A stretch of DNA of 34,548 nucleotides. Origin: Halanaerobiales bacterium. GTDB taxonomy: Bacteria > Bacillota > Halanaerobiia > Halanaerobiales > Halanaerobiaceae. The stretch is from the NCBI GenBank assembly GCA_016278485.1, contig JADQBT010000032.1:1-34548 (forward strand), in the 5' to 3' direction. Under the pieces are notes generated by a model. The model did no database searches. It had not been told where the DNA came from and was given only the letters and a program-made list of their open reading frames with translations. This document shows positions 443 through 18,874 of the stretch, one piece after another (position 1 is the stretch's first letter; every line of letters begins with the position of its first letter). Made by a program: the position numbers and the translations under genes.

Positions 443-480
443 AGTACTAGGGTATACTTCTTGGGTCAAGCGACTACTTC

Positions 481-595
481 ACCTAACACAGGGTTTACGG
501 TTTTGCTCCTTACGTCGCTGCACCCAAATTAATACACCAAGGGCAGCCGCCCTAAGGTTCAGGAACTTCGGCAATACGGATACGTTATCTGAAAT
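481..595 (+). repeat. attC-like cassette repeat, copy A (long type 1)
   Basis: The left box ACCTAAC (481-487) fits the integron R'' consensus RYYYAAC. The right box GTTATCT (584-590) is followed by the family-wide gaaat tail. Inside, AGGGC (540-544) pairs with GCCCT (549-553) across a 4-base loop, next to a second small hairpin, ggttcaggaactt. It begins 38 bp after the CPBP stop and ends 50 bp before the rsgA start. Sequence similarity to copies B, D, F, G and Q is visible along the whole length. Confidence 0.75.
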
Positions 596-645
596 GAAAA
601 CATGTGATATTAATTAGTGGGTTAAAAAACGTATAAGAGGTGAAT

Positions 646-1653
646 ATGAATTTGCATTTAAAGAAATTAGGATGGAATGATTTTTTTCAGTGTTTATTTG
701 CAGAATATCAAAATGATGACTTTATACCTGGTAGAGTAGTTATAGAGCACAAAAATTATTATCGTGTATTAACAGAACATGGTGAGTTATTAGCAGAAGT
801 AACAGGAAAGTTTAATTTTAATGCCGAAAGTAGATCTGATTATCCAGCGGTTGGAGATTGGGTAGTTTTAAGACCACATCTTAATCAAAAAAAAGCCAGT
901 ATTCATGCTATCTTAAATCGAGATAGTAAATTTATCAGAAAAATGGCTGGTAAAAAAACAGATGAACAAATTATCGCAGCTAATATAGATACTATTTTTA
1001 TTGTCAGTTCATTAAATAATGATTTTAATGTTAGAAGGTTAGAGAGATATCTAACACAAGTTTGGGATAGTGGTTCAAATCCTGTTATTATTTTAAATAA
1101 ATTAGATCTTTGTGATAATGTAGATAAAAAAATAAAAGAAGTAGAAAAAATAGCTTTTGGGGTTCCTATTATAGCAATTAGCTGTGTAGATAGAATAGGA
1201 ATTGAAAAACTGAATAATTACTTAAAAGAAGGTGAAACTATAGCACTTGTAGGATCTTCAGGAGTAGGAAAATCTACAATTATAAATATCTTTATGGGCA
1301 AAAAAGTCCTTAAAACAAAAAATATTAGAGAAGATGATAAGGGCAGACATACTACAACTCATCGGGAATTATTAATTTTACCATCTGGTGCTATTATAAT
1401 AGATACTCCGGGAATGAGAGAACTCCAACTTTGGGATGAGGGTGAAGGTATTAGTGGAGCCTTTTCTGATATAAAAATGTTAGCTAGTCAATGCAAATTT
1501 ACAGATTGTAAACATGATACTGAGCCTGAATGTGCTGTAAAAAAAGCAATTGAGGAAGGTAAACTAAGTAAAGAAAGATATAAAAGCTATCAAAAAATGT
1601 TGCGTGAATTAAGATATCTAGAATTAAAAAGAGCAGGCAAGAAAGTTACATGA
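646..1653 (+). CDS. rsgA: Ribosome small-subunit-dependent GTPase A (RsgA/YjeQ family)
   Basis: RsgA is a circularly permuted GTPase that works in late 30S subunit maturation. The protein (335 aa) has an N-terminal OB-fold (VGDWVVL near residue 70), then GTPase motifs in permuted order: NKLD (about 151), P-loop GSSGVGKS (about 203), a DDKGRHTTT switch region and DTPG (about 253). A C-terminal zinc site C-x4-C-x-H-x5-C follows (about 283-296). I prefer ATG 646 over GTG 640 because the GTG lies inside the Shine-Dalgarno AGAGGTG. It lies alone between repeats A and B, away from the usual housekeeping neighbours (stp, prkC, rpe). It may therefore be an accessory second copy. All catalytic motifs look intact. 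Confidence 0.9.
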   Translation: MNLHLKKLGWNDFFQCLFAEYQNDDFIPGRVVIEHKNYYRVLTEHGELLAEVTGKFNFNAESRSDYPAVGDWVVLRPHLNQKKASIHAILNRDSKFIRKMAGKKTDEQIIAANIDTIFIVSSLNNDFNVRRLERYLTQVWDSGSNPVIILNKLDLCDNVDKKIKEVEKIAFGVPIIAISCVDRIGIEKLNNYLKEGETIALVGSSGVGKSTIINIFMGKKVLKTKNIREDDKGRHTTTHRELLILPSGAIIIDTPGMRELQLWDEGEGISGAFSDIKMLASQCKFTDCKHDTEPECAVKKAIEEGKLSKERYKSYQKMLRELRYLELKRAGKKVT

Positions 1654-1710
1654 TTACTTTAGGATTACTTAAAACATTTTATGCTATGAATTGTGGCCAA
1701 TTGTCACTTC

Positions 1711-1827
1711 AGATAACAATATATTTCCGATTTCGTTCCTTCGTCACTGCATCCAAATCCATCAACCCAAGATAAGAGCTAACTAAGGGTTGCTGGACTT
1801 CGGAAATGCGGTTAAGTTATGTGAAAT
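1711..1827 (+). repeat. attC-like cassette repeat, copy B (long type 1)
   Basis: The left box AGATAAC (1711-1717) and right box GTTATGT (1816-1822, then gaaat) are inverted repeats with one mismatch. Internally ATTTCCGA (1723-1730) is perfectly complementary to TCGGAAAT (1800-1807), which corresponds to the L''/L' arms of an attC site. An apical AACCC (1764-1768)/GGGTT (1787-1791) stem is also present. This copy shows the dyad most clearly. It starts 57 bp after the rsgA stop. Confidence 0.78.
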
Positions 1828-1944
1828 AGCTAAGTTTAATATTATGATAATAAAATATATAGTGTATAATTAAAAAATTAAATTTAAAATATCTACGATA
1901 TTAGGATAATTTTATTTAGAAAAAAATATGGAGGAAATGAACTT

Positions 1945-2424
1945 ATGAAATTCTTGATTATATATTATTCTGATTATAAGAATAATACTGAAAAAATAGC
2001 ACATGTTTTTGCTAACGAAATAGATACGGAGTTAATAAATATAAAGGATGTTAATGATGTTGATATAAAAGATTATAACTTGATTGGATTTGGTTCCGGT
2101 GTATACAGGGAGAGGCTGTCACCAAAGTTATTTAAATTAGTAGATAAATTGAATTTACGAGATGAAAATGTTTTTGTATTTTCAACCAGTGGAATTGGTA
2201 TGAAATTCTATAATAAGAAATTAATTAAGATTCTTGAATCTAAAGGAGCAATAATCAAGGGTAACTTTGCTTGTAAAGGTAGTTTTGTTGCACAGGAAGT
2301 CACTAATAATAATCTTTTTGGTATTATTTTTGCTATTCTAGGTAGATTATCACAGGGGCATCCAAATGATAAAGATTTTAAAAAAGCAAAAGAATTTATT
2401 GAGGAGGTAGTGGATCTACTTTAA
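1945..2424 (+). CDS. Flavodoxin-like protein
   Basis: Small FMN-binding electron-transfer protein of about the usual flavodoxin length (159 aa). The first beta strand and phosphate loop are visible (FLIIYYSDYKNNTEKIA, residues 3-19; the typical form is Y-S-x-T-G-N-T). Later come GFGSGVYRE (about 49-57) and FVFSTSG (about 78-84), which in the family contact the isoalloxazine ring. The loop departs slightly from consensus (SDYKNN for S-x-T-G-N). A GGAGG ribosome site precedes ATG 1945. The gene stands alone between repeats B and C. The redox partner cannot be told from context. Confidence 0.82.
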   Translation: MKFLIIYYSDYKNNTEKIAHVFANEIDTELINIKDVNDVDIKDYNLIGFGSGVYRERLSPKLFKLVDKLNLRDENVFVFSTSGIGMKFYNKKLIKILESKGAIIKGNFACKGSFVAQEVTNNNLFGIIFAILGRLSQGHPNDKDFKKAKEFIEEVVDLL

Positions 2425-2438
2425 ATTTCCGCTACTTC

Positions 2439-2591
2439 ACATAAAACAGAGGGTTCCCGTTACACCGAAGAACGGGCTACTCTTCGAGACTTGCTCTCTT
2501 TCACAGAGTCTGCAATGAATGAGATAAGTTGTTGGGTAGCAAACTTTGTGCCAGGCCTACGGCACGAGCAAGTCGGGACGTTATCTGAAAT
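2439..2591 (+). repeat. attC-like cassette repeat, copy C (long type 2)
   Basis: It begins with a diverged left box (acataaaac) 14 bp after the flavodoxin stop and ends in GTTATCT (2580-2586) plus gaaat. The interior differs from type 1 and matches copies H and M: ggttcccgt, then gctactcttcg, tgcaatgaatgag, gcaaactttg and cacgagca-gtcggga. The left TTCCCG can pair with the right CGGGA. A 63-codon open frame crossing it is a translation of the repeat, not a gene. Confidence 0.75.
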
Positions 2592-2776: not shown

Positions 2777-3208
2777 ATGATCAAAGTAGAGTTTTACGAA
2801 AAAGAAGAAATAAAAGAAAAGGATATAAAGTTTGCTGTAATAATGGCATTTTATAAAGATAAAATAGTTGTTGTTAGACATAGAGATAGAAATACTTGGG
2901 AGATACCAGGTGGACATAAAGAAGAAAATGAATCTAGTCTTGATGCTGCCAAAAGGGAATTATTTGAGGAAACAGGAGCAAAAGTATTTGATTTAAAATG
3001 GATATGTTCATATTCTGTTAATAGAGGAGAAAATAATTCGTTTGGTAATCTTTATTATGCTGATATAAAAGAATTGGGAAAATTACCTGGGTATGAAATA
3101 GAAGATGTAAAGTTAGTAAAAGAATTACCAAAAAATCTTACTTATCCTTTAATACAACCTCATTTGTATGAAAGAGTAAATAAATATATTGCAGGTGTAA
3201 CGGGATGA
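2777..3208 (+). CDS. Nudix hydrolase
   Basis: Nudix enzymes hydrolyse nucleoside diphosphates linked to another moiety, often damaged nucleotides. The 143-residue protein has a complete Nudix box that fits G-x5-E-x7-R-E-U-x-E-E-x-G-U: it begins at G46 and contains E52, REL (60-62) and EETG (64-67). The preceding strand IVVVRHRDRNTWEIPGG is typical of MutT/8-oxo-dGTPase-like members. AGAAAGGAAG precedes ATG 2777. The stop is only 4 bp from the left box of repeat D. The substrate cannot be predicted. An antisense open frame over this gene is a shadow. Confidence 0.88.
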   Translation: MIKVEFYEKEEIKEKDIKFAVIMAFYKDKIVVVRHRDRNTWEIPGGHKEENESSLDAAKRELFEETGAKVFDLKWICSYSVNRGENNSFGNLYYADIKELGKLPGYEIEDVKLVKELPKNLTYPLIQPHLYERVNKYIAGVTG

Positions 3209-3212
3209 CGTC

Positions 3213-3326
3213 AGATAACAAAATATTGCCGATTTCGTTCCTACGTCACTACATCCAAATTCCATCACCAAGGGCAGTCGCCCTAAGGTTCTGGAACTTG
3301 GGCAATACGATTACGGTATCTACAAT
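3213..3326 (+). repeat. attC-like cassette repeat, copy D (long type 1)
   Basis: The left box AGATAAC (3213-3219) pairs with GGTATCT (3315-3321) with one mismatch; the tail is acaat instead of gaaat. The inner arms tattgcc (left) and ggcaata (right) are complementary. The apical hairpin AGGGC-AGTC-GCCCT is like copy A but has a changed loop base. It directly abuts the Nudix stop codon. Confidence 0.75.
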
Positions 3327-3367
3327 AACGGCTAAGTCTATAATAAATATTAGGAGTTGATTTAATA

Positions 3368-4396
3368 ATGATAAATTACCCAACACCTTTAAAAAAAGGA
3401 GATACAATTGGGATTACAGCTCCATCATCTGGTGTAACTGGTGTTATTGTTAAGAAATTGGAAAATGCTAAAAGTCAGTTGAACAATTTAGGCTATAATT
3501 TTATTGAAACTGATTCTGTTAAAAACCAAAGTAAATTAACCAGTGCCCCTTCAAGTATTAGAGCTAAGGAATTCACATCATTATATTTAAATGAGGATGT
3601 AAGGGCAATAATTCCTCCTTGGGGGGGAGAATTTTTAATGGATATGTTACCTTATTTAAATTATGAGAAACTAAGGGAAGCTGAACCCAAGTGGATATTA
3701 GGATTTTCCGATATAAGTACATTATTGTTTACTTTAACATTAAAACTTAATATTGCTACAGCACATGGACCTAATTTACTTGATTTTGGTAATACACCAA
3801 TTCATGAATCAGTTTTGGAAACTTTAAATATTTTGAACAAAGAAAAAGGAGAGAATTTTGTACAACATAGTCTAGATCGATATCAAAAAGAGTGGTTGGA
3901 AGTTACAAAGAATAATATCCCTCCTTATAACTTAACAGAAAAAGTAGAGTGGAAGAATTTGGGTAATAAAAAAGAAGTTGAATGTAGTGGAAGACTGATG
4001 GGAGGAAATTTGGATGTAATATGTAAATTGATAGGAACTCCATATGATTTAGTAGAAAACTTTATAAATATGCATAACTCAGATGGGTTTATTTGGTATT
4101 TTGAGAGTTGTGAAATGGATTCATCTGATATATATAGAACTTTGTGGCAAATGAAAATGAATGGATGGTTTGAAGAGTGTAAAGGTATATTATATGGAAG
4201 AGCAGAAGGATATAGTGATGTAGAGGATTTCACATTAGTTGACTCATTAGAGTATTCTTTATCTGATTTAGATGTTCCTGTAATATATAATGTTGATTTA
4301 GGACATATGCCTCCTCAATTGGTATTTATCAATGGAGCATATGCAACTGTCAATGTAAAAGAAGGAGAAGGAGAAATAAAACAAGAATTAATTTAA
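3368..4396 (+). CDS. S66 family peptidase (LD-carboxypeptidase / MccF-like)
   Basis: Serine peptidases of family S66 include LdcA (murein tetrapeptide recycling) and MccF (microcin C7 self-immunity). The 342-aa protein starts with the family N-terminus L-K-x-G-D-x-I-G-I-x-A-P-S-S (residues 8-21). It has the nucleophile elbow GFSD with Ser114, the IIPPWGG segment (81-87), a glutamate region WYFESCE and the histidine region VDLGHMPPQ near the C-terminus. All expected catalytic positions are present. Full length and a GGAG ribosome site support an active gene. The MccF-like branch is often found as a stand-alone accessory gene, which fits a cassette; LdcA function remains possible. Confidence 0.85.
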   Translation: MINYPTPLKKGDTIGITAPSSGVTGVIVKKLENAKSQLNNLGYNFIETDSVKNQSKLTSAPSSIRAKEFTSLYLNEDVRAIIPPWGGEFLMDMLPYLNYEKLREAEPKWILGFSDISTLLFTLTLKLNIATAHGPNLLDFGNTPIHESVLETLNILNKEKGENFVQHSLDRYQKEWLEVTKNNIPPYNLTEKVEWKNLGNKKEVECSGRLMGGNLDVICKLIGTPYDLVENFINMHNSDGFIWYFESCEMDSSDIYRTLWQMKMNGWFEECKGILYGRAEGYSDVEDFTLVDSLEYSLSDLDVPVIYNVDLGHMPPQLVFINGAYATVNVKEGEGEIKQELI

Positions 4397-4416
4397 TATA
4401 TAGTCGCAGTTACTGC

Positions 4417-4476
4417 AGATAGCATGGTATTTCCGTTACGTAAAGACCAGCTACTCTGCGGGACGTTCAGCGAAAT
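4417..4476 (+). repeat. attC-like cassette repeat, copy E (short, 60 bp)
   Basis: A compact version: left box AGATAGC (4417-4423), then ggtatttccgttacg, gctactctgcggg, and right box GTTCAGC (4465-4471) with gaaat. The long internal section of the other types is missing, but both ends are kept. A length of 60 bp is close to the shortest known attC sites. Copies J and L are of the same short class. Confidence 0.65.
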
Positions 4477-4524
4477 GGGACTATGTTAGTATATATGGAA
4501 ATTAAAAAGAATTGGAGAATTAAA

Positions 4525-5364
4525 ATGATATTTGAAATTGAAAAAGACAACTTTAAATCTATTTATGGTCTATTAGATGATAAGGTGGATAATGTAGAAA
4601 TAAAAGCAGTTATTGAAGGAAATAATCCGGGCTGGATTTTTGTAGATTCTATAAAATCACCTCATACTGCAATGATTTGGTCAAAAGGTATTCAAGGATT
4701 CTATTTTGTTGGAGATGAAAACAATCCGGAATTTAATAATTATATTAGTGATTATATAGATAAAGAAATTGAACCAAGAGCAATTAAAGAAAACTTAAAT
4801 CGTTTTGAATTTAGTGGGGAAACTGAAAAATGGTGCTCGATACTAGAAGAGGTATTTAGTGGTAGAGAATTAAACAAGTCTAAACAATATATATATAAGT
4901 TTAAGTATGATTCATGGCATGATTATAAAAAACGTAAATTGAATGATAAGTTTGTGTTAAGAAAAATTAATATTGAATTATTAAATGATAAAAATATAAA
5001 AAACTTGGATTATATAGTTTCAGAAATTTTACGTTGGTGGAATTCTTGTGAGGAATATTTAAATGAAACATTTGGTTATTGTATAGTTTCTGATAATATA
5101 ATAGTAAACTATTGTTTATGCAATTTTGTATATGATGATATTCATACAATGGGAATTGAAACTCTTGAAGAGTATAGAAGAAATGGATTTTCACAAGTTA
5201 CAACAGAAGCTTTTGTAGAAACATGCATAGATAAACAATTAAAACCTCACTGGGAATGTATGGGGAGTAATATACCATCATGGAGTTTAGCTGAAAAATT
5301 AAACTTTAATAGAGAACATATTTATACACTATATTCATTTCCATTTAAAAAAGAAATAAATTAA
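4525..5364 (+). CDS. GNAT family acetyltransferase, two-part
   Basis: Acetyl-CoA-dependent N-acetyltransferase by fold. About 279 aa if translation starts at ATG 4525, which has TTGGAG at the right distance; the upstream ATG 4483 has none. The N-terminal half (IEGNNPGWIFVDSIKSPHTAMIWSKG) resembles the PF12746 type. The C-terminal half holds IVSDNIIVNYCLCNFVYDDIHTMGIETLEEYRRNGFSQVTTEA, corresponding to motif A, with a relaxed R-R-N-G-F acetyl-CoA loop in place of R/Q-x-x-G-x-G/A. It ends in a LAEKLNFNRE segment typical of the last GNAT strand. The acceptor is unknown. Confidence 0.75.
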   Translation: MIFEIEKDNFKSIYGLLDDKVDNVEIKAVIEGNNPGWIFVDSIKSPHTAMIWSKGIQGFYFVGDENNPEFNNYISDYIDKEIEPRAIKENLNRFEFSGETEKWCSILEEVFSGRELNKSKQYIYKFKYDSWHDYKKRKLNDKFVLRKINIELLNDKNIKNLDYIVSEILRWWNSCEEYLNETFGYCIVSDNIIVNYCLCNFVYDDIHTMGIETLEEYRRNGFSQVTTEAFVETCIDKQLKPHWECMGSNIPSWSLAEKLNFNREHIYTLYSFPFKKEIN

Positions 5365-5397
5365 GTGATAGCAAATATTGTGGGTTAGTCCCACTTC

Positions 5398-5508
5398 GCT
5401 TAATTAAAATATTGCCGGTTCTGCTCCTTCGTCGCTCCACTCAAATTCCTTCACCAAGGGCTGTCTGACTAAGGTTCATAAACTTTGGAAACTCAAGTTA
5501 TATGACAT
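5398..5508 (+). repeat. attC-like cassette repeat, copy F (long type 1)
   Basis: The left end is diverged (gcttaatt). The right box is GTTATAT (5497-5503) with tail gacat. The interior aligns with A, B and D: attgccggttctgctccttcgtcgct, then caccaagggctgtct and aaggttcataaactt. The apical GGGC stem is partly lost. It begins 33 bp after the GNAT stop. Confidence 0.7.
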
Positions 5509-5594
5509 AGTGTGGCTAGTTAAATAATTGTAGTATAGTATTTATTATATAGATATTTTATCGAGAAACCATATAAAATCATGTGAGGTGGAAC

Positions 5595-5992
5595 ATGGAA
5601 TTATTAAAAGAAATAAATCATAAAGAGCAATTAAATAAAAAAGGCAGATTAATTACTCGAGAAGCTGTACGAGGTATTATTTTAGATAACGAAAAGGTTC
5701 TTATGATATTATCTACTGAAAATGGTGATTATAAATTTCCTGGTGGAGGAAATGAAATTGGAGAGACCAAAGAAGAAACTCTTATTATTACATATGTATG
5801 GTAGAGGAAAATTTTTGCAAACAAAATCATGATCAATATGAGGAAGAGTTAGAATTTAAACCTGTTTGGGTTGATATTGATGATGCAATTCAAAAAAATA
5901 ATTTGATACTTAATTCAAATTCTGAAAAAATTCCTAGGTGGACAAAAAGAGAAACATATGTATTAGAATACATTAAAGAAAGTGAATTTTGA
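5595..5992 (+). pseudogene. Nudix hydrolase, internally deleted and frameshifted
   Basis: Two overlapping frames form one broken gene. Frame 1 (from ATG 5595, behind GAGGTGG) gives AVRGIILDNEKVLMILSTEN, then FPGGGNEIGETKEETL, the first half of a Nudix box, and stops at 5804. Frame 3 continues with VEENFCKQNHDQYEEELEFKPVWVDIDDAI and ends at 5992. In related proteins the catalytic REUxEExG helix and about 30-40 residues lie between these parts; here they are absent. So an internal deletion that also shifted the frame removed the active site. Its stop falls in the middle of a repeat unit (copy G). Confidence 0.78.
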
Positions 5993-6069
5993 TGCACCAA
6001 ATTTCTTCACTAAGGGCAATCGCCCTAGAGTTCGGGAACTTCATAAATACGCGGGACGTTATGGGAAAT
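5993..6069 (+). repeat. attC-like cassette repeat, copy G (right half only)
   Basis: It starts abruptly at the position that corresponds to the middle of copy A (tgcaccaaatttcttcac), keeps the AGGGC/GCCCT hairpin and the ttcgggaactt segment, and ends in GTTATGG (6058-6064) plus gaaat. The left box and the left arm are missing. The break coincides with the end of the damaged Nudix gene, so deletion or illegitimate recombination joined the two. Confidence 0.7.
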
Positions 6070-6094
6070 GCCTTTTATTGGAAGGGAGAGTAAA

Positions 6095-7090
6095 GTGGTT
6101 ATACAAAATAAAATGCTTGAATTTATAGATAAATTAAATAAAGTAAATGGGAGAAAAAATATATTTTATGAAACAACTAAATATAAAAAAATTCCTCCTT
6201 TAGGTAAATATGTTGTTGATTATATAATATCTCATCAACAAGAAATAATTGAATATATTAATTCTACTGAAGAATTTCAAACTAAAAAATTTATTAGAAA
6301 AGTAGTAGAATATTCTACTGATAAAATAATTGCAACTCTATTTAATTTAAATCAATATGCAGAAATAAATGATGAAATAATTAATAAAATCAATGCTCTA
6401 TATTATAATTTTGTGAATGAGGTATTTAATAAATTAAGATTAAATCAGGCTATTAATTTAGAATGGATAAATATACTTGTAATTGAACATCAAGTTCGTT
6501 TAAGAGAGATTTTAGGAGAAATTGATGAATTAAAAATTTTTTCTAAAGATAAAAAATATTTAGATCCTATCCCCTGTTCAGAGTATAGTGCAGTTTTTCA
6601 ACTAGAAATTTTAAATATTAATGTAGAGAAAATTTGTGAACCAGTTTTAGATGTCGGTTGTGGTTCTAGTGCTAAATTAGTTCATTATTTACGTGCTCAA
6701 GGTATAAAAGCTTATGGTATAGATAGAAGTATAGAAAAGAAATCATCTTATCTTATAGAAACAGATTGGTTTGAATTTAAAATGAAACCAAATTATTGGG
6801 GAACTATTATTTCACACTTATCATTTACAAATCATTTTAAAAGAAATCATTTTAAAAAGAATGGAAATCATATTATTTATGCTAGAAGATATATGGATTT
6901 GCTTAATTCTTTGAAATTAGGTGGCAGCTTTTTTTATACTCCTGATTTAGCTTTTATTGAACAATTTTTAACTTCTGATTTATATGATATTAATAAGAAA
7001 AAAATTAATAACGAAAAATTAAGTCTTATGAAAAGAAAAAATAACATGAACATTTATTCTGTACAAATAAATAAATTAAATAATAATTAA
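6095..7090 (+). CDS. SAM-dependent methyltransferase with a long N-terminal helical region
   Basis: A class I methyltransferase fold lies in the C-terminal half: motif I PVLDVGCGSSAKLVHYLR, then the acidic end of strand 2 in AYGIDRS. A late GGSFFYTPDL strand corresponds to motif IV/V. The N-terminal 170 residues are charged and helical with no domain I recognise. GTG 6095 has GGAAGGGAG upstream and is preferred. The open frame from ATG 6068 would begin inside the preceding repeat. AT content is high, with long runs of Lys, Asn and Ile. The substrate is unknown. Confidence 0.7.
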   Translation: MVIQNKMLEFIDKLNKVNGRKNIFYETTKYKKIPPLGKYVVDYIISHQQEIIEYINSTEEFQTKKFIRKVVEYSTDKIIATLFNLNQYAEINDEIINKINALYYNFVNEVFNKLRLNQAINLEWINILVIEHQVRLREILGEIDELKIFSKDKKYLDPIPCSEYSAVFQLEILNINVEKICEPVLDVGCGSSAKLVHYLRAQGIKAYGIDRSIEKKSSYLIETDWFEFKMKPNYWGTIISHLSFTNHFKRNHFKKNGNHIIYARRYMDLLNSLKLGGSFFYTPDLAFIEQFLTSDLYDINKKKINNEKLSLMKRKNNMNIYSVQINKLNNN

Positions 7091-7126
7091 AAAAGCATTA
7101 TGTTAATAATTGTATTGGAGGTAAAA

Positions 7127-7183
7127 ATGAAATACATATGCGCTTTATTTGTGGTTGATGATATAAAGGAGATCTTGAAATGA
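7127..7183 (+). pseudogene. N-terminal remnant of a VOC (glyoxalase-fold) gene
   Basis: Eighteen codons after a good TTGGAGG ribosome site read MKYICALFVVDDIKEILK and stop. The pattern M-K-x-I-x-x-L-x-V-V-x-D-I is the usual first beta strand of VOC-superfamily proteins, which continue with a SRKFY-like helix. Here the frame ends at the point where the next gene begins; stop and start overlap as ATGA. It is probably the stump of a deleted gene. It could now serve as a translated leader that couples to the downstream gene. Confidence 0.5.
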
Positions 7184-7641
7184 AAAATGGAACTATACTT
7201 ACTATAATTGTTTTACTACCTAATTTAATCGTATTAATTTTTCCTCCTAAAGAAGAACCACCTAAATATGAGGAAAGTATGGTTTTAAGGGGAATGACGG
7301 TTATAGAGCAGATAGGACGCGCAATTGTATTTATTACTCCGTTATTTTATTCAATTAATTTTAATACTAATTATCAATTATTTAGTTTATATTCTTTAAT
7401 TATTGCAATTGCTTTTTATTATGTTGGCTGGTTAAGATATCTTTTGTACGGTAGACTATATAAACTTCTTTTTGAGCCTATGCTAGGAGTTCCTATTCCT
7501 ATGGCTATTAGTCCAGTCATTTTTTTCTTATTTAGTAGCATAGTTTTGGATACTTGGTTATTATTTATCGGAACAATCTTTTTAGCAGTGGGGCATATTT
7601 ATGTCAGCTATCACTCATATAATCAAATAAAAAATGTTTGA
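7180..7641 (+). CDS. Small integral membrane protein, unknown function
   Basis: A 153-residue hydrophobic protein with about five predicted membrane segments (roughly 5-20, 46-60, 66-88, 102-122 and 124-143). A charged proline-rich stretch PPKEEPPKYEE follows the first helix. I recognise no catalytic motif. Its ATG overlaps the stop of a VOC stump by 4 bp, so translation may be coupled; AAGGAG at about 7167 also gives it its own site. It shares a unit with the upstream methyltransferase and ends 18 bp before repeat H. Confidence 0.6.
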   Translation: MKNGTILTIIVLLPNLIVLIFPPKEEPPKYEESMVLRGMTVIEQIGRAIVFITPLFYSINFNTNYQLFSLYSLIIAIAFYYVGWLRYLLYGRLYKLLFEPMLGVPIPMAISPVIFFLFSSIVLDTWLLFIGTIFLAVGHIYVSYHSYNQIKNV

Positions 7642-7659
7642 GAGTTAACAACGTTCTTC

Positions 7660-7782
7660 GTCTAACAGAGGGTTCCCGTCACGCTAGAGTTCAAGCTATT
7701 CTGCGGGACATGCTATCCAAACTTTGCGGCAGGTCCTAGTGGACATGAGCACATCGGGAAATCTGGGGATGTTAAGCGTAAT
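7660..7782 (+). repeat. attC-like cassette repeat, copy H (type 2)
   Basis: The best match to canonical integron core sites: the left box GTCTAAC (7660-7666) fits RYYYAAC and the right box GTTAAGC (7771-7777) fits GTTRRRY. The interior is ggttcccgtcacgc, ctattctgcgggacatgct, aaactttgcggcagg, then gacatgagcacatcggga, as in copies C and M. The tail is gtaat. It starts 18 bp after the membrane protein stop. Confidence 0.75.
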
Positions 7783-7836
7783 AACTTCAGTTTATATTGT
7801 ATAGAAAAAAATAAATTAATGCTTTGGAGGGATAAG

Positions 7837-8835: not shown

Positions 8836-9014
8836 ATAATGGACCATATAAATATATCCGGCATCCAGGTAATTTAGGAATGATATTAGCATCTTTCGTT
8901 CAACCATTAATTGTTGGGCCTATATATGCATTTATACCAGGTTTTTTTGCCGCACTTTTAGTAGTTATAATAACTAAAATGGAAGATGGAATTTCTCCTA
9001 AATTTAGAGAATAA
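8802..9014 (+). pseudogene. Isoprenylcysteine carboxyl methyltransferase (ICMT)-like, 3' fragment
   Basis: A different frame from the hydrolase gives RIQNQRNHKIIDNGPYKYIR, then HPGNLGM and two hydrophobic stretches, stopping at 9012-9014. G-P-Y-x-Y-I/V-R-H-P is the SAM-binding signature of ICMT/PEMT-type membrane methyltransferases. In these the R-I-Q...H-K-x-I-x-x-G-P-Y run is typical. The first ~100 residues are absent and no start codon precedes the fragment, so it is a remnant joined to the 3' end of the hydrolase. Confidence 0.72.
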
Positions 9015-9045
9015 GAAAAGATCAGTTCAAAAAAGGAGTGTAATC

Positions 9046-9813: not shown

Positions 9814-9828
9814 GCACAGGGAAACATC

Positions 9829-9888: not shown

Positions 9889-9903
9889 CGGGAGGAAATA
9901 AGA

Positions 9904-11721: not shown

Positions 11722-11736
11722 AAACAATCTAATGTT

Positions 11737-11798
11737 GGATAACATGGGATTCCCGTGACGCAAAAAATCGTGCTACCCTTCGGTACGTTATCTGACAT
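11737..11798 (+). repeat. attC-like cassette repeat, copy L (short)
   Basis: The left box GGATAAC (11737-11743) and right box GTTATCT (11787-11793, tail gacat) are inverted repeats with one mismatch. The interior is gggattcccgtgacg then gtgctacccttcgg. It is 62 bp long, starts 15 bp after the protease stop and ends 24 bp before the next ATG. Confidence 0.7.
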
Positions 11799-11822: not shown

Positions 11823-12677
11823 ATGCATATAAAAACTTTAACAAATGAATTACTTCATGATTTTCTTGAATATTGTAATAAATATGGAAAAGAGCATGAT
11901 GAATCTTACTTACCAGATGGAGATTTTAAGCTAAATTCAGAAAATCCCACGTATTTGTTATATAACAATTCAAACGAATTAATAGGTGTAGTTTCATTGA
12001 TGCTTAATGAGGGGAGATTTAGGATTTTTCATTCAATTGAAGCTAAATTGCTTAATTATAGATGTTTGTTTGATAAAATATTACTTGATACAAATAGATT
12101 GAAGAAAATACATCTTTTTCTTCCAGAAGGAAAGATAAAGGTAAGAGAAATATTGAAGAAATTAGATTTTGTCGAACAAAGATATTCTTGGTATTTAGAA
12201 AAAAATAATACTAAGATAAATAATATTGAATTACTAAATGTATATAAAGTGAAATCTATAAAGTGGAACAAAGAAGAAAATATATGGTGCAGTCTTATAA
12301 ATAATAATTTTAAAGAGCATCATGGTTTTTCTAAATTAAAAATAGATGATGTTAAAAAAATGAAAGGCCAAAACGGAAAATTGTTTATATTATGGAGAGG
12401 TAAAAAACCTATAGGGACAATACAATTAAATATAAATATTGAGAATGGTATTAAATTTGGTTTTATATCATGGCTAAGTATAAATAAACCATATAGAGGA
12501 ATGGGATTAGGGAGAAATTTACTAAGATATGCAATAAAATTAGCAAATGAAAACATGGCAGAAAAAACAGGATTAGTTGTACATTCAACAAATAAAAATG
12601 CAGTACAATTGTATCAAAATGAAGGATTTAAGAAGATTGAGTCTTTTATTTGTTTTAATAAAAAACTCAATTTATAA
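11823..12677 (+). CDS. GNAT family acetyltransferase, tandem domain
   Basis: The C-terminal GNAT domain is clear: KKPIGTIQLNI, then FISWLSINKPYRGMGLGRNLLRYAI (motif A with the acetyl-CoA loop R-G-M-G-L-G) and NKNAVQLYQNEGFKKIES (motif B). The N-terminal half (ELIGVVSLMLN, ILKKLDFVEQRYSWYLE) looks like a second, degenerate GNAT domain without a P-loop, so the 284-residue protein resembles mycothiol-synthase-type duplicated GNATs. GAAAGGGG precedes ATG 11823. The substrate is unknown. Confidence 0.82.
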   Translation: MHIKTLTNELLHDFLEYCNKYGKEHDESYLPDGDFKLNSENPTYLLYNNSNELIGVVSLMLNEGRFRIFHSIEAKLLNYRCLFDKILLDTNRLKKIHLFLPEGKIKVREILKKLDFVEQRYSWYLEKNNTKINNIELLNVYKVKSIKWNKEENIWCSLINNNFKEHHGFSKLKIDDVKKMKGQNGKLFILWRGKKPIGTIQLNINIENGIKFGFISWLSINKPYRGMGLGRNLLRYAIKLANENMAEKTGLVVHSTNKNAVQLYQNEGFKKIESFICFNKKLNL

Positions 12678-12692
12678 AGAATGCCCAACGTC

Positions 12693-12855
12693 AGTTAACC
12701 AGATATTTCCGCTACGGACTAGCAGCCTGCCTTCGGGACATGCTCTCTGACACAAAGCTTGAAATGAATGAGGGGGTAATACAGCCGTCGTCAAACTTTG
12801 CGTCAGTTTATATCGACACGAGCACGTCGGGAACAGTTGATACGTTAAGTGAAAT
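12693..12855 (+). repeat. attC-like cassette repeat, copy M (long type 2)
   Basis: The left box AGTTAAC (12693-12699) lies 15 bp after the GNAT stop. The right box GTTAAGT (12844-12850) fits GTTRRRY and is followed by gaaat. The interior matches C and H: tttccgctacg, cttcgggacatgctctctgacacaaagcttgaaatgaatgag, then caaactttgcg, gacacgagcacgtcggga. At 163 bp it is the longest copy. Confidence 0.78.
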
Positions 12856-12928: not shown

Positions 12929-13783
12929 ATGATTAAAAAATTAACAGATAGAATTTATTATATGCCACACAAAGAGGACACGGATAGACCTTCCCTAGGA
13001 CTTATCTGTGGTAACAAATATAGTCTGATAGTTGACTCAGGAAACTCTCCGAGTCATGCAAAAGAGTTTATTTCAGAAATAAAGTCAATGGATATTCCAC
13101 CATTGAAATATCTAGTTCTTACACATTATCATTGGGATCATATTTTTGGGATACGAAAGATGAACCTAATAACCATTGCTAACAAAAATACAAAAGAAAA
13201 AATAGATGGAATGAAAAAATTAAAGTGGGATGATGCATCATTAGAAGAATATCTTGATAGTGAAAGATTTTCTGATTTTACTATTGAATGTATAAAAAAG
13301 GAAATACCCAAAAGAGATAGGTTTGCAATAGGTGATTTAGATATTATATATAAGGATAGTATTGAAATAGATTTAGGAGAATTAAAATGTATTGTTAAAG
13401 AAATTGGAGGGTCGCATACTGATGATTCGTCTGTCATCTATATTCCTGAAGAAAAAGTTTTATTTTTAGGAGATTGTATTTATGGTAGAAGATATAATGG
13501 AGTATATGGTTATACCAAAGAAAAACTATTTCCTATGATTGATGAGATTGAAAAGTACGATGCTAATTATTATATTATTTCACATCAGGATGTATATAAT
13601 AAATCTCAGATACATGAGCTATGGAATCAATTAAAATTAGCCGAACAGATAGTAGGAAAAAATTGGTCTATTGAAGATATAAAAAAAAGATTTTCAGATA
13701 AATTTAATGAATTACCTTCTGAAGATGTTAATTTTTATATTAAGTGTTTTGCAAATGTAAATAAGGCATTATCAAAATCATAG
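12929..13783 (+). CDS. Metallo-beta-lactamase fold hydrolase
   Basis: A 284-residue MBL-fold protein. The dinuclear metal motif H-x-H-x-D-H is THYHWDH (residues 65-71). The next histidine is in GGSHTDDS, the bridging aspartate in LFLGDCIYG and the last histidine in IISHQD. The glycine-rich start LGLICGNKYSLIVDSGNS is usual for the family. AGAAAGGAAGAAGG precedes ATG 12929. Members include glyoxalase II, lactonases, quorum-quenching enzymes and beta-lactamases. The THYHWDH context and GDCIYG resemble the broad MBL hydrolase group rather than class B lactamases. Confidence 0.88.
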   Translation: MIKKLTDRIYYMPHKEDTDRPSLGLICGNKYSLIVDSGNSPSHAKEFISEIKSMDIPPLKYLVLTHYHWDHIFGIRKMNLITIANKNTKEKIDGMKKLKWDDASLEEYLDSERFSDFTIECIKKEIPKRDRFAIGDLDIIYKDSIEIDLGELKCIVKEIGGSHTDDSSVIYIPEEKVLFLGDCIYGRRYNGVYGYTKEKLFPMIDEIEKYDANYYIISHQDVYNKSQIHELWNQLKLAEQIVGKNWSIEDIKKRFSDKFNELPSEDVNFYIKCFANVNKALSKS

Positions 13784-13987: not shown

Positions 13988-14545
13988 TTGATAGAAGGTA
14001 ATAAAGTGATAATCAGACAGTTAGAATCAGGTGATGAAGAATTACTACATAAGTGGAGGAATAATGCTAGGGGTAATCTATATTGTGGTTTTAAATATGG
14101 TTTCTTATTGAGTAAGGAATCTTTTAAATTACAAGTAAAGGATGAAATAGAAAGTAAAGAAGTCTTTCCCAATGAAAAATTATTTATTATTTGCAAAAAA
14201 GAAGATGCAACTCCTATAGGAGATATATCTTATCGTAACTGGAGCAAGAGAAATAGAAGTGCAGAATTTGGAATAGAAATAGGAGAGATTAAGGAAAGGG
14301 GTAAGGGCTATGGGTATGATGCCCTAAGTAATTTCATTACATTTATGTTTAATTTCCTTAATTTAAATAGAATTGAGTTAACAACATTAGCAGATAATAA
14401 AAAATCAAAAAATTTATATGAAAAGCTGGGATTTAAAAAAATAGGTCTAATGAGGGAAGCTAGTTTTGATAGTAGAGTAGGCACCTACTCAGACGTTTTG
14501 TATATGGATTTATTAAGAAAAGACTGGGAAGAAGTGAAGAAATAA
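13988..14545 (+). CDS. GNAT family acetyltransferase (RimJ/RimL type)
   Basis: A 185-residue protein of the Acetyltransf_3 group, which acetylates protein N-termini, polyamines or antibiotics. The N-terminus IEGNKVIIRQLESGDEELLHKW is typical of RimJ/RimL. It is followed by TPIGDISYRNWS, EFGIEIGEIKERGKGYGYDAL (motif A with R-G-K-G-Y-G loop), and NRIELTTLADNKKSKNLYEKLGFKKIGLMREA. GGGAGG lies 8 bp before the TTG start. All GNAT landmarks are present, so it should be functional; the acceptor cannot be deduced. Confidence 0.87.
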   Translation: MIEGNKVIIRQLESGDEELLHKWRNNARGNLYCGFKYGFLLSKESFKLQVKDEIESKEVFPNEKLFIICKKEDATPIGDISYRNWSKRNRSAEFGIEIGEIKERGKGYGYDALSNFITFMFNFLNLNRIELTTLADNKKSKNLYEKLGFKKIGLMREASFDSRVGTYSDVLYMDLLRKDWEEVKK

Positions 14546-14550
14546 AAAAA

Positions 14551-14638
14551 TTCCCCAAAGTATTATCTGGTGACTTTATTGTATTTTTAACGTGGGGAGG
14601 CCTCATAACAATGAGTTTACGGTTACGTTATCTGAAAT
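14551..14638 (+). repeat. attC-like repeat, copy O (rearranged)
   Basis: The right end is perfect (acGTTATCT at 14627-14633, then gaaat). The left part is not: there is a second attatctgg-like box at 14562-14570 and a cataac at 14604-14609, as if two site ends had been joined. ttcccc (14551-14556) can pair with gggga (14594-14598). Probably a deletion product of one or two sites. Confidence 0.5.
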
Positions 14639-14675
14639 AACCGCTAAAATAAATAATATAAAGGAGTTGGTTGTA

Positions 14676-15218
14676 ATGGAAATAATATTTTTTATTGTTG
14701 TTGTAATTTTGATTGTCTTAGGTATTTTTAGTATTATATCAGGGCTCTTTTCATCAGTGAGAATAAAAGAAAAAGTCATGGGACCATTTAAATTGGTGTA
14801 TAAAGAACATATAGGTCCTTATAAAGAAACCGGAAAGATTCAAGATGAAATTTATCATAAGTTGTTAAATGAAGAAAATATTGAAACTTATAGCGGCTTT
14901 GGAATATACTATGATGACCCTCAAAATACTCCTCAGAATGAATTAAGAAGTAAAAGTGGTTGTATTCTTGAAGAGAAGGATTACAATAATATTCATCAAT
15001 TAGATGATAACTATAATTTTATGGAATTAGAAAAGCAGAAATTTATATATACTGAGTTTCCTTTTAAAACAAAATTATCAATTATTTTGGGTACTTTTAA
15101 AGTTTATCCTAAAATTGAAAAACATGTTGAAGAGAAAGGTTATGAAAAAAGAGAAGTAATGGAAATTTATGATGTGCCGAATAAAAATATTATTTATTTA
15201 ATGCCAATTGAAGAATAA
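14676..15218 (+). CDS. Membrane-anchored GyrI-like (TEX264-like) protein
   Basis: About 180 aa from ATG 14676, behind AAGGAG. The longer frame from 14592 begins inside repeat O and is rejected. Residues 1-25 form a single membrane helix (IIFFIVVVILIVLGIFSII). The soluble part has the GyrI-like small-molecule-binding pattern: MGPFKLVYKEHIGPYKETG, then FGIYYDDPQN and a late EFPFKTKLSII strand. One N-terminal membrane helix plus a GyrI-like domain is the layout of eukaryotic TEX264. The domain family includes transcription-factor effector domains and gyrase inhibitors; a catalytic role is also known in some members. Function here is unknown. Confidence 0.7.
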   Translation: MEIIFFIVVVILIVLGIFSIISGLFSSVRIKEKVMGPFKLVYKEHIGPYKETGKIQDEIYHKLLNEENIETYSGFGIYYDDPQNTPQNELRSKSGCILEEKDYNNIHQLDDNYNFMELEKQKFIYTEFPFKTKLSIILGTFKVYPKIEKHVEEKGYEKREVMEIYDVPNKNIIYLMPIEE

Positions 15219-15369: not shown

Positions 15370-16533
15370 ATGAAATTTAAAAAACATACAATAATTATTT
15401 TTGCTCTTATATCAGTCGTCTTAGTTACAACTTCAATATATTTTTTTAGTAGAGAAGATGATTCTATTGATGTTAGCCAAAAAGTATCAGTTTCTTTTTC
15501 AACCCAATTTTCAAATCAATATATTGAAAATAATAGAGGTAAGATAATGGTAGAGATACCTGAGGTTTACGAGCTTTTGAATATAGTGATTGCATTATCA
15601 AATATTGATAAGGATTATTCGTCACTTACTAATAAACAAACTCGATATTATCAGTCTGTTATTGAACATTTTGGAGAATATAGGAATCATCCGATTGTTG
15701 ATGAAATAGAATCAGCCAATAAGAATATGGGTTATTCAAATGTCAGGAATCTATTTATTTATAGTTTTTCTGATGATTCTATAGTTCATGGGGGAATATA
15801 TACAAATAATTATATACAGGAAAGGACTGATAAGTATATAGAACAACTACAAGACTTCGCAAAAGTTAGTGGGTTTAGGCAATTTTATGATGAACACAAA
15901 GATTATTATCGAGAACAAATTTCTATATTTAAGGATATAGTCCCTGTTAGAAATATGTGGCGTTGGTTGGAGATGAATTTTCCAATCCAGCATGACACAT
16001 ATAAGATTATTATGTCACCTTTGACAGGTGGATCACATAATACATTTAATTACAGAGATAAAAACAATAATTATAGTGAAATTGTTATGTTTATTTCTGC
16101 GCCTAATATTATTGATTTTAGTCAAAATTCTCAAAGAGTAGTTGAAGGTTTAATTTCACGAATGCTTTTTACAGAAATTGATCACAATTATGTAAATCCA
16201 ATTACAGATCTTGATAAAAATATAATGGATGTGGTTGAAGCTTTCTCCAATTTAGAGAAGTGGAACAAAGCCTCAAGTTATGGTCGTCCGGCATTAACAT
16301 TTAATGAATATATGACATGGGGAGTATTTATGCTATATGCTCATGATATTTATAATGGAAAAGACTTGGCAGAAATCGAAAAAGTTACTGTAGATATTAT
16401 GAACTATAGGGGATTTGTCCATTTTCAACAATTTTATAATGAACTTTTGGACCTGTATGAAGTCAAGGAGGATAGTAAAACAGTTGCAGATTTATTTCCA
16501 AATATAATAGAATGGTGTAAAAAATATAAATAG
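15370..16533 (+). CDS. DUF4932-family protein with variant TEIDH metal motif
   Basis: A 387-residue protein with an N-terminal membrane or signal segment (about 6-25, IIIFALISVVLVTTSIYFF) and an extracellular remainder. Segments such as YYQSVIEHFGEYRNHPIV, VPVRNMWRWLEMNF, DTYKIIMSPLTGG and LFTEIDHNYVNP match the layout of the DUF4932 protein at 28766-29995. In that protein the corresponding motif is LHEWGHSFINP. Here the first metal histidine is replaced by threonine (T268-E-I-D-H272). GGAGG lies 8 bp before ATG 15370. Either a variant metal site or a non-peptidase paralogue; the cargo and target are unknown. Confidence 0.65.
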   Translation: MKFKKHTIIIFALISVVLVTTSIYFFSREDDSIDVSQKVSVSFSTQFSNQYIENNRGKIMVEIPEVYELLNIVIALSNIDKDYSSLTNKQTRYYQSVIEHFGEYRNHPIVDEIESANKNMGYSNVRNLFIYSFSDDSIVHGGIYTNNYIQERTDKYIEQLQDFAKVSGFRQFYDEHKDYYREQISIFKDIVPVRNMWRWLEMNFPIQHDTYKIIMSPLTGGSHNTFNYRDKNNNYSEIVMFISAPNIIDFSQNSQRVVEGLISRMLFTEIDHNYVNPITDLDKNIMDVVEAFSNLEKWNKASSYGRPALTFNEYMTWGVFMLYAHDIYNGKDLAEIEKVTVDIMNYRGFVHFQQFYNELLDLYEVKEDSKTVADLFPNIIEWCKKYK

Positions 16534-17274: not shown

Positions 17275-17288
17275 AGTTTAACCTCTTT

Positions 17289-17753: not shown

Positions 17754-17864
17754 GTAAAGCACAGTACAGCTCGGGTCCTTCCTCGGTACCTAAATCCTGC
17801 AACCTAAGATAGGAGTTATCTTAGGGTTGCCGGACTTCGAAAATAAGGATACGTTATATGACAT
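17754..17864 (+). repeat. attC-like cassette repeat, copy P (long type 1)
   Basis: The right box GTTATAT (17853-17859) has tail gacat; the left end is diverged (gtaaagcac). The apical hairpin is the strongest in the array. AACCTAAGATA (17801-17811) pairs with TATCTTAGGGTT (17817-17828) over 11 bp with one bulged G. At the same place copies A and D use AGGGC/GCCCT. The ggacttcg arm is also kept. Confidence 0.72.
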
Positions 17865-17969
17865 TGCTTATTATTCGAGTTTCAGTTTTTGTTTATAAAC
17901 CAAAACTATACTAATGATTTAAAATAAATTGGTAGAATAATAATTTATATATTAAAAGGAGCATGGGAT

Positions 17970-18389
17970 ATGAAAATAAAACAAGATGATTATTTAATAA
18001 CGGACAATAAAGAAAATATTGACATAGATTTTATTATTAGGTCTTTGCAAGAAACTTATTGGGCAAAAAATAGAAAAAAGGAAGTTATAATAAACTCAAT
18101 AGATAATTCTATTTTAATATCAATGTTTAAAAAGAAACAGCAAATAGGTTTTAGTAGAATAGTAACTGATAAAGCTGCATTTGCATGGGTTGCTGATGTA
18201 TATATTGATAAAAAATATAGAGGAAAAGGTTTGGGAAAATGGCTTGTCAAGAACACTACAGATCATCCAGATATAAAAAATGTATTTTTACAACTATTAA
18301 AAACAAAAGATGCCCATGGTGTATATGAGAAATTTGGATTTAAAAGAGATGATTGTTTAACTAAAAGAAAGATTTCAGAAGAATTATAA
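17970..18389 (+). CDS. GNAT family acetyltransferase, compact
   Basis: A 139-residue single-domain GNAT. The order is: ETYWAKNR near the start, QQIGFSRIVTDKAAFAWVADVYIDKKYRG, the acetyl-CoA loop R-G-K-G-L-G (about 90-95) and VYEKFGFKRDD at the end. The E-T-Y-W and F-A-x-V-A-D-V-Y-I features are characteristic of a large group of short bacterial GNATs of unknown substrate. AAGGAG precedes ATG 17970. It is complete. Confidence 0.87.
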   Translation: MKIKQDDYLITDNKENIDIDFIIRSLQETYWAKNRKKEVIINSIDNSILISMFKKKQQIGFSRIVTDKAAFAWVADVYIDKKYRGKGLGKWLVKNTTDHPDIKNVFLQLLKTKDAHGVYEKFGFKRDDCLTKRKISEEL

Positions 18390-18410
18390 TATGACTGATT
18401 CAAAATAAGA

Positions 18411-18650
18411 ATGAAATCCAAGCAACGTCATATAGTGATTACCTACCATTTGTCGAATACAGTAGATGTAAGGTACACTGTATCAGAAGAAAACAAGGCA
18501 AAATGGACGAAAGAAAACCGTCTAAACTTGATGGGAAGCTCATTACTAATAAATCTACTAATTTGGAGGTCCAAATCTATGAGAACTATGGTAAACGGGG
18601 AGGAGTACTTTATTGAATTCAAATATATAAAAGGACAAAATTTAACTTGA
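18411..18650 (+). other. Degenerate stretch with unassigned open frame
   Basis: An open frame of 79 codons starts just after the GNAT stop but has no ribosome site and I cannot match it to a family. A second frame over 18510-18615 gives a hydrophilic stretch beginning ERKPSKLDGKLITNKSTNLE that looks more protein-like, so the region is probably the remains of a coding sequence with frameshifts. A transposase origin is possible but unproven. Confidence 0.25.
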
Positions 18651-18663
18651 TACCCTCCCAACG

Positions 18664-18744
18664 ATGAAAAAAGCACAAGAACTATATAAATCAATAGGGT
18701 TCTACGATATTGATCCTTATACATATAATGAAGTCAAATTAAAG
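18664..18744 (+). pseudogene. C-terminal remnant of a GNAT acetyltransferase
   Basis: [25 protein letters not shown] is the recognisable end of a GNAT domain (A-x-x-L-Y-x-S-I/L-G-F then P-Y-x-Y-N-x-V). After it the frame continues straight into repeat Q with no native stop. No N-terminal part is present upstream. It is the leftover 3' end of a cassette gene, still attached to its repeat. Confidence 0.65.
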
Positions 18745-18767
18745 TGTTGTTTAATTGACGGGAATTC

Positions 18768-18874
18768 ACATAAACATGGTATTTACAGTTCCACTATCGT
18801 TATTCCCAAATTACCTCATCAAGAGCACCCCAGGATTCAGGAACTTCGTAAATGCCTAGTAGGTTATTTAAAAT
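18768..18874 (+). repeat. attC-like cassette repeat, copy Q (decayed type 1)
   Basis: cacataaacatgg at the left, attcccaaattacctcatcaagagc in the middle, caggattcaggaacttcgtaaatgcc, and GTTATTT-aaaat (18863-18874) at the right. It aligns with copy A over its length but with many changes. This is the last copy with both ends visible and marks the 3' border of the array. Confidence 0.65.

Follow-up and report, generated by a model that had tools for sequence, protein, structure and literature searches.

Integrons that resemble the system reported here have been described in several groups. In the chromosomal integrons of Treponema denticola and T. succinifaciens, intI points towards attI and reads the same way as the cassettes (PMC3607928); the attI of T. 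brennaborense is described with the R′ sequence GTTAGGT. In archaeal integrons, attI lies directly 3′ of intI, cassette arrays are present and the integrase is reported to carry the IntI-specific additional domain, or patch (Ghaly 2022; PMC9668308). Integron integrases have been selected by the presence of the patch (Nemergut 2008; PMC2426708), and an account of the 'Integron-like' subgroup of tyrosine recombinases calls this insertion essential for integron function and, in the excerpt used here, does not link members without it to cassette arrays (Smyshlyaev 2021; PMC8138268). In Firmicutes, integrons are described as extremely rare, IntegronFinder 2.0 having found one that is complete (Limnochorda pilosa) and a few clusters of attC sites lacking integrases (CALINs; PMC9024848). 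The Halanaerobiales are Bacillota able to stain Gram-negative, as is stated for one species (PMC10536098). The stretch of DNA analysed here (the window) is an entire contig of 34,548 bases (C27) from a Halanaerobiales genome of 2.86 Mb in 39 contigs. Taken as a whole, it is with high confidence best explained as part of a sedentary chromosomal integron whose integrase lacks the patch and mostly carries a HARP-like domain. The array is real, partly decayed and made of exchangeable gene cassettes; the system is probably an integron by mechanism, and probably also by descent, in a patchless variant.

We envisage that each cassette unit begins with TTANNNGANAT..., contains mostly one gene and ends in an attC-like hairpin (R″-L″-variable loop-L′-G). 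The unit would leave and enter as a circle, through recombination between the G and the TT of the R′ core, and incoming circles would insert at attI, immediately 3′ of the integrase gene, which gives integrase and array one common reading direction. The enzyme would be a tyrosine recombinase closely related to IntI, without the patch and mostly with an N-terminal HARP-like domain, acting on the folded bottom strand of attC. The unit structure, a crossover within GTTA, attI, the exchange of units, the absence of the patch and the presence of the N-terminal domain are all evident from sequence comparison. The data place the cut within GTTA; its exact position between G and TT, the strand used, the action of the enzyme on the sites and the role of the HARP-like domain, which would help to read folded DNA in place of the patch, we infer. 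Because the integrase of this genome is reduced to a 53-residue remnant, its own array would by now be immobile and in decay, unless integrase activity is supplied in trans.

Two covariance models, R1 and R2, trained on copies from the window, from other contigs of the same genome and from two relatives, together identified 14 attC-like imperfect palindromes in a single orientation between window positions 471 and 18874. Nine are intact or nearly so (sites A–F, H, J and K in Table 1, of which E and J are short) and five are decayed. The preliminary description of this DNA had counted about 13 clear copies and several decayed ones; its repeats are real and lie where it placed them, with the numbers revised as given here. 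R1 found 11 window sites, all on the same strand, and R2 found ten, nine of them on the array strand; the tenth (340-378) lies outside the array and is at chance level (E = 0.79). Training copies, four from the window in R1 and three in R2, fit their own model by construction. Among the copies outside both training sets, the decayed sites G, O and P were still detected (E from 1.9e-9 to 4.2e-16), as was the short site J (R2, E = 4.8e-5), and the decayed sites I and M were weak (E = 0.06 and 0.045). A strict end scan (ANNTCNNNTAAC...GTTANNNGANAT, inner G+C of at least 38%) also recovers the main window repeats, and ten 2-nt block shuffles of the sequence yielded 0-2 matches each. A laxer first version was discarded at 109-124 matches per shuffle, and a generic stem scan, which recovered none of the window copies, served as a lead only.

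With the gene list set by hand from the open reading frames (ORFs) of the window, the nine better copies start 0-53 bp past a stop codon and end 7-186 bp ahead of the next start, close to the 4-57 and 15-190 bp first described. The sites thus occur at gene 3′ ends and in one orientation, rather than away from gene ends or in random orientation. No tyrosine recombinase was matched on the window contig, so that with at least two attC sites and no integrase the window by itself is a CALIN, in agreement with the label 'CALIN-like' of the preliminary description.

Evidence that these intervals are integron-type units comes from their ends. The R″ of a cassette's attC and the first bases of the same cassette, past G|TT, are complementary, since excision to a circle brings the two together; classical cassettes are cut between G and TT. 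In the window, the ends flanking a gene agree at 12-13 of 15 positions in all six testable single-gene intervals, against about 6.5 of 15 expected (the sum of permuted values from the 297-pair analysis below). Matching fails in the two-gene intervals 6069-7655 and 7782-9824 (7/15 and 4/15), as if a boundary had been lost. When the ends in the window were assigned automatically, triplets were identical in one of four cases, owing to a wrongly placed left end of copy C and to pairing over boundaries that had been lost; hand-set ends gave five of six. In a first set of loci, 102/206 gene-flanking pairs agreed at all three variable bases (chance 9.1; none of 20,000 permutations as high), as did 12/319 pairs of a repeat-flanking control; this set includes the loci that revealed the rule, and two genomes (G051 and G053) enter it twice. 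Another 37 stretches, which played no part in finding the rule and come partly from genomes of the first set, gave 174/254 matching gene-flanking pairs (chance 27.7; maximum 46 in 5000 permutations), with 51/313 in the repeat-flanking control. Matching per genome was highest at 7/7 (G007) and 41/51 (G005) and lowest at 3/19 (G021) and 0/2 (two further stretches of the window's own genome).

By position, 297 pairs from the window and 46 loci show a strong excess of agreement from +4 to +18 and none clear upstream of the G, where the largest value (+0.10 at −9) is present in the repeat control too. The array of Vibrio sp. HDW18, which we take to be a superintegron and used as a positive control, shows the same pattern from +4 to +10 (47 pairs), its repeat control having a clear excess in the L box only. 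Because the ends match by gene, in a shape shared with the Vibrio superintegron, these sequence patterns identify the cassettes as integron-type units with a crossover within GTTA. The terminal inverted complementarity spans about 18 nt per cassette here (297 cassettes), compared with about 10 nt in the Vibrio control.

This rule also separates cassettes from other kinds of repeat. Short palindromes of similar size, many per genome, are what would be expected of elements resembling miniature inverted-repeat transposable elements or repetitive extragenic palindromes, spread by a transposase and tolerated after stop codons. A transposed palindrome should, however, match at its own ends, and in both data sets above it is the ends around genes that match, those around repeats doing so rarely; the window copies are moreover co-oriented, and identical gene-plus-repeat units occur in different species. 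We rejected this interpretation, to which we assign a very small probability. That the copies are hairpins of transcription terminators or of conserved regulatory RNAs would account for the location after stop codons and for the stable fold of most copies. This reading is even harder to uphold, to the point of being negligible: an Rfam search gave nothing above gathering scores, and neither a terminator nor a riboswitch can accommodate a cassette-specific match of start and end that is absent within a single repeat.

As folded DNA, the sites behave largely as attC sites do, having the form of imperfect palindromes with R and L boxes that fold into hairpins, with some window copies near zero z. 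In the three site types, pairs changed on both sides (compensatory) number 23/38, 25/45 and 8/23, and mean fold z-scores are −3.9, −4.5 and −3.5. With DNA parameters, the bottom strand is the more stable in 15/15 and 16/19 sites of two types. This bias, computed from sequence, agrees with the bottom-strand recombination of integrons; the third type disagrees.

The integrase that might have built such arrays survives in the window's own genome as a 53-residue C-terminal open frame on another contig (C10). It matches TIGR02249 with 61 bits (model positions 267-315), is the genome's best match to our integrase profile A1 (86 bits) and is followed by GTTATGTGAAAT, the attI, and by a first cassette whose attC matches. 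The start-like peptide MKLLVNENDKK, recognised by eye upstream of the remnant, suggests an internal deletion of the integrase. Among 59 genomes, taken as the class of the Halanaerobiales, 26 have an A1 match of at least 230 bits, our own threshold for calling an integrase, and three more have remnants; two of the 26 (G014 and G045) look like IS91-type recombinases. TIGR02249 was above its cut-off in none of the 59 genomes, and at E≤1e-30 it left one family (f1) seemingly integrase-free until profile A1 revealed its integrases. The integrase lies directly ahead of attC-like sites in G003, G007, G008, G013 and G026, and ahead of a single detected site in G006. In one complete genome (G005, L134:8389-10731), a clade integrase heads a large array and is split by an IS3-type-like element (orfA/orfB, by eye).

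Evidence that these integrases belong to their arrays is provided by attI. We examined 105 integrase loci and took as testable those in which both a core, no more than 450 nt from the stop codon of the integrase, and an attC-like site after it could be recognised. The duplicates L053 (of G053) and L058 (of G051), as well as L006, L007, L035, L039 and L186-L195, had been excluded beforehand. The attI core triplet equals that of the first attC in 41/48 testable loci, the remnant included (chance 3.6; maximum 11 in 5000 permutations). Matching loci come from Halanaerobiales, Paenibacillus, Saccharibacillus, Cohnella lupini and Clostridiaceae, and from bins titled Bacillus, Nitrospirae, Nitrospinae, Atribacteria, Aminicenantes, Spirochaetae, Bacteroidetes, Deltaproteobacteria, Thermotogae and Altarchaeum, labels that may be wrong. 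Arrays in related Halanaerobiales, in Paenibacillaceae and in other groups thus have an intact integrase of this clade at their head. Where the preliminary description proposed a search for an IntI-type integrase with its specific patch, the genome itself keeps a remnant with attI, and the enzymes that head arrays in relatives lack that patch.

In the class sample, whose covariance models cover two of the three site types, R1 finds attC-like sites (E≤0.01) in 32/59 genomes and R2 in 37/59. Five or more sites by either model occur in 19/29 genomes with a clade integrase or remnant and in 6/30 others (Fisher p = 5.7e-4), or in 19/27 and 6/32 when the two IS91-type genomes are not counted as carriers (p = 7.9e-5). 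The earlier statement that integrons have rarely or never been reported in Firmicutes thus fails for this class, in which those 37 genomes have at least one site, although IntegronFinder 2.0 reported few. These figures bear on an ordinary origin of the cassettes, in which a patch-bearing IntI from elsewhere moved them and the adjacent patchless recombinases are bystanders. The few CALINs and single complete integron published for Firmicutes (PMC9024848) would fit that account, as would G020, G021 and four further genomes with at least five sites and no detected clade integrase. Given, however, that no class genome reaches the TIGR02249 cut-off and that clade integrases precede arrays with an attI core fitting the first cassette, we regard it as improbable.

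The array-head enzymes are close relatives of IntI that differ from it at one conspicuous point. Their closest match in the PDB, by profile and by Foldseek (with a predicted structure of pLDDT, the predicted local distance difference test, 79.7 and predicted TM-score 0.50), is the integron integrase 2A3V, presumably VchIntIA. Because the best match in both sequence and fold is an IntI structure, the preliminary description's alternative of an unrelated system that converged on the same form is disfavoured. The spacing from GKG-KxR to HxLRH is 55-63 residues in 101/107 ORFs of the patchless group, IS91-type members included (of the other six, one over-long ORF has 78 residues and five were unmeasurable), compared with 99-101 in IntI (n = 4) and 68-69 in Xer (n = 6), and the IntI patch block is absent from all seven members aligned. 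An SPLD-like tail, as in IntI, is present in 97/107. The first A1 member matches TIGR02249 in two stretches with 251.5 bits, under the cut-off of 265, and passes that of NCBIfam NF040815 recomb_XerA_Arch (242 against 220), a model matched by all ten A1 members. In a quick tree of 100 rows, from which ORFs below 300 bits or 260 residues other than references were excluded and L053, L058, L095, L052, L102, L109 and L101 were dropped, four IntI references group together (support 97) outside 89/90 patchless rows (93), with L092 unresolved, and 19 labelled Halanaerobiales enzymes group with two Clostridiaceae rows and G001 (87).

Most of these enzymes have an N-terminal domain instead of the patch. 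Pfam HARP (PF07443) matches 16/27 members at E up to 1 (best 4.7e-6), and the best PDB match of a profile of the domain is the SMARCAL1-type HARP domain (4o66, E = 0.0012). When the isolated domain is modelled (pLDDT 88.8), structural alignment pairs it with T4 UvsW (Z 8.1), with XPB (Z about 6) and with the HARP domain of SMARCAL1 (4o66, Z 4.6), in a search that also lists the unrelated CASTOR1 and eIF1; Foldseek with this model gave no E under 0.001. The domain is found in 37/41 integrase ORFs with matching attI and cassette (32 in the same ORF, five in an upstream frame), 14 of the 41 having helped to build the domain profile, and in none of four IntI and six Xer references. These 41 ORFs are the 39 scored attI matches plus L044 and L045, with L020 and L134 outside the set. 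No significant match to the profile was seen in two patchless-group integrases, L118 (Brucepastera parasyntrophica) and L130 (a Treponema metagenome-assembled genome); the array of L118 obeys end matching in 5/6 pairs, and its attI core is mismatched.

What the domain does is the step at which an alternative comes closest to our proposal. An integron as described above could have a HARP-like domain unrelated to site recognition, serving for example in regulation or dimerisation, with the patch simply dispensable. The rule-abiding L118 array, headed by an enzyme with no recognised domain, speaks for this version, its mismatched attI core notwithstanding; the near-constant presence of the domain in attI-matched enzymes, set against its absence from IntI and Xer and qualified by the shared profile members, speaks for a role at the sites. 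The alternative, which rivals this one inferred step only, falls just short of an even chance. Somewhat more tentatively, we would see here a second major integron lineage, with representatives in Bacillota (Halanaerobiales, Paenibacillaceae, Clostridiaceae), Spirochaetota, Nitrospirota, Bacteroidota and some archaeal bins, in which the patch never arose or was lost, an N-terminal HARP/UvsW/XPB-like domain recognises folded single-stranded attC, and the cassette-specific terminal inverted repeat of about 18 nt makes the attC of the circle fold better than that of the array, favouring capture over loss; as a joint claim this may well prove wrong in one part or another.

Sequence comparison shows that whole cassettes are exchanged between genomes. 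Among 310 units, 516 pairs of full cassettes are alike along most of their length. G003 carries a run of three cassettes (1037, 428 and 1734 nt), each of which has a 100% identical counterpart in another species (G010). There, the 1734 and 428 nt cassettes are neighbours on one contig with their order reversed, and the 1037 nt cassette sits on a different contig. Identical units in another order are the exchange of gene-repeat units on which the preliminary description had made its proposal depend. The two arrays of G005 also have several 100% identical cassettes in common, and the arrays of G005, G009, G010 and G001 (L133-L165) contain many similar short units of about 420-510 nt, some perhaps without the usual gene.

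Several points weigh against the proposed integron. First, recombination was not observed, and the case is built on sequence. Second, the own-genome integrase is a remnant only, 6/30 genomes without a detected clade integrase still carry at least five sites, 57/105 integrase loci fell outside the attI test, and 7/48 attI cores were mismatched as scored, L044 and L045 matching at a second core candidate. Third, three loci of the first set have an integrase and no matching ends (L111 0/9, L095 0/8, L092 0/4), with site counts of 10, 10 and 5 against 9, 4 and 0 in one shuffle each. Fourth, the third site type has no bottom-strand preference (10/19), and several window copies fold hardly better than shuffles (z of −0.2 for A, 0.2 for F, −0.1 for H and −0.8 for K). 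The permutation figures also treat cassettes and genomes that are related as independent observations, and so exaggerate certainty. Finally, the HARP match is moderate, and a structural Z of about 8 may reflect a common arrangement.

Comparison with known systems locates this integron more closely. It shares with the Treponema integrons the same-direction layout of integrase and array (PMC3607928), and the T. succinifaciens intI (716056-717288, 411 codons) is as long as the long form here. The integrases of Brucepastera and of the Treponema metagenome-assembled genome belong to the patchless group, and the Treponema integrons may be of the same lineage; if the published Treponema IntI lack the patch, they would be its earlier known members. 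With archaeal integrons it has in common arrays and an attI directly downstream of the integrase gene, and differs in lacking the additional domain reported there (PMC9668308). Likeness to the Vibrio superintegron extends to the end-matching signature from GTT onwards (HDW18), 2A3V as best match and the SPLD-like tail; in Vibrio, however, intI is divergent from the array, the terminal complementarity is the shorter one given above, there is no HARP-like domain and the HDW18 enzyme (L191) has the patch, with 101 residues between the motifs. The tyrosine recombinases nested in the same tree, which we take to be IS91-associated, are likewise patchless and mostly have the SPLD-like tail; they differ in having the HARP-like domain in the same ORF in none of eight (L094 has it in an upstream frame) and a match of attI and cassette in none of six examined.

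A search of open-access full texts, with most subscription papers and all bioRxiv preprints outside its range, found no description of patchless integrons or of integrons in Halanaerobiales or Paenibacillus. If patchless enzymes head such arrays, patch-based surveys would be missing a large pool of cassettes. Such enzymes would also make it possible to test how folded single-stranded DNA can be recognised by a recombinase that lacks the patch, and would offer natural proteins in which to compare two solutions to one recognition problem.

Integrase relatives also occur beyond these genomes. In genome contigs the best 80 of 586 were kept, a sample that supports no statement of frequency, and viral contigs yielded 289. 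L026, L035 and L039 were set aside, by eye and from the tree, as IS91-associated or other recombinases; L039 (G026:C1 near 1596208), a second tyrosine recombinase, of IS91-associated type with one internal stop in its longer match, lies inside an attC array (1516163-1642007). On a plasmid of Chryseobacterium sp. SNU WT5 (L276, 8980-18448), an integrase relative (41% identity) is followed by cassette ends that match in two pairs, among genes that include an IS110 transposase and a group II intron reverse transcriptase; this is possibly a mobile patchless integron.

Between the copies in the window, Pfam identifies RsgA, flavodoxin, NUDIX, S66 peptidase, four GNATs, two methyltransferases, alpha/beta hydrolase, DUF5700, metallo-beta-lactamase, GyrI-like and DUF4932 genes and an MBOAT fragment, and two array genes are without a Pfam match (Table 1).

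Table 1. Cassette genes and attC-like sites of the array, in window coordinates
Feature	Positions	Strand	Basis
attC-like site A, complete	476..595	+	strict end scan; R1 108.5 bits (training copy)
RsgA-type GTPase cassette gene	640..1653	+	Pfam PF03193
attC-like site B, complete; R″ fits cassette start after A, 12/15	1706..1827	+	strict end scan, R1, end matching
flavodoxin cassette gene	1945..2424	+	Pfam
attC-like site C, complete, long type	2434..2591	+	R2 127.9 bits (training copy); end matching
NUDIX cassette gene	2777..3208	+	Pfam
attC-like site D	3208..3326	+	R1 118.1 bits (training copy); end matching
LD-carboxypeptidase S66 cassette gene	3368..4396	+	Pfam
attC-like site E, short	4412..4476	+	R2 16.6 bits (weak); end matching
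GNAT acetyltransferase cassette gene	4483..5364	+	Pfam
attC-like site F	5393..5508	+	R1 81.2 bits (training copy); end matching
NUDIX-like gene, apparently broken, overlapping ORFs 5583-5804 and 5798-5992	5583..5992	+	NUDIX by eye only
attC-like site G, left half decayed	5970..6069	+	R1 42.6 bits
two genes, no Pfam match; intervening boundary probably lost	6068..7641	+	Pfam search; end matching
attC-like site H	7655..7782	+	R2 83.3 bits (training copy); R1 19.5 bits
alpha/beta hydrolase cassette gene	7819..8835	+	Pfam
methyltransferase gene	8986..9813	+	Pfam
attC-like site I, left half only	9824..9910	+	R1 15.6 bits (weak)
methyltransferase gene	9904..10725	+	Pfam
putative zinc peptidase DUF5700 gene	10759..11721	+	Pfam
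attC-like site J, short	11732..11798	+	strict end scan; R2 25.2 bits
GNAT cassette gene	11823..12677	+	Pfam
attC-like site K, complete, long type	12688..12855	+	R2 123.6 bits (training copy); end matching
metallo-beta-lactamase fold cassette gene	12929..13783	+	Pfam
GNAT cassette gene	13988..14545	+	Pfam
attC-like site M, right half only	14600..14638	+	R1 16 bits (weak)
GyrI-like gene; true start probably inside ORF, 3′ of site M	14592..15218	+	Pfam
DUF4932 gene	15370..16533	+	Pfam
attC-like site O, left end decayed	17763..17864	+	R1 40.8 bits
GNAT cassette gene	17970..18389	+	Pfam
attC-like site P, decayed, last copy seen; overlaps 75-aa ORF	18763..18874	+	R1 63.3 bits

The MBOAT fragment (16777-17235, minus strand), probably a pseudogene, is the sole minus-strand gene in the array gene list. 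Outside the array, one ORF of 432 aa (20279-21577) appears by eye to join a GNAT and a methyltransferase in one frame, and another (28751-29995) appears by eye to be a second member of the DUF4932 type, in addition to the one inside.

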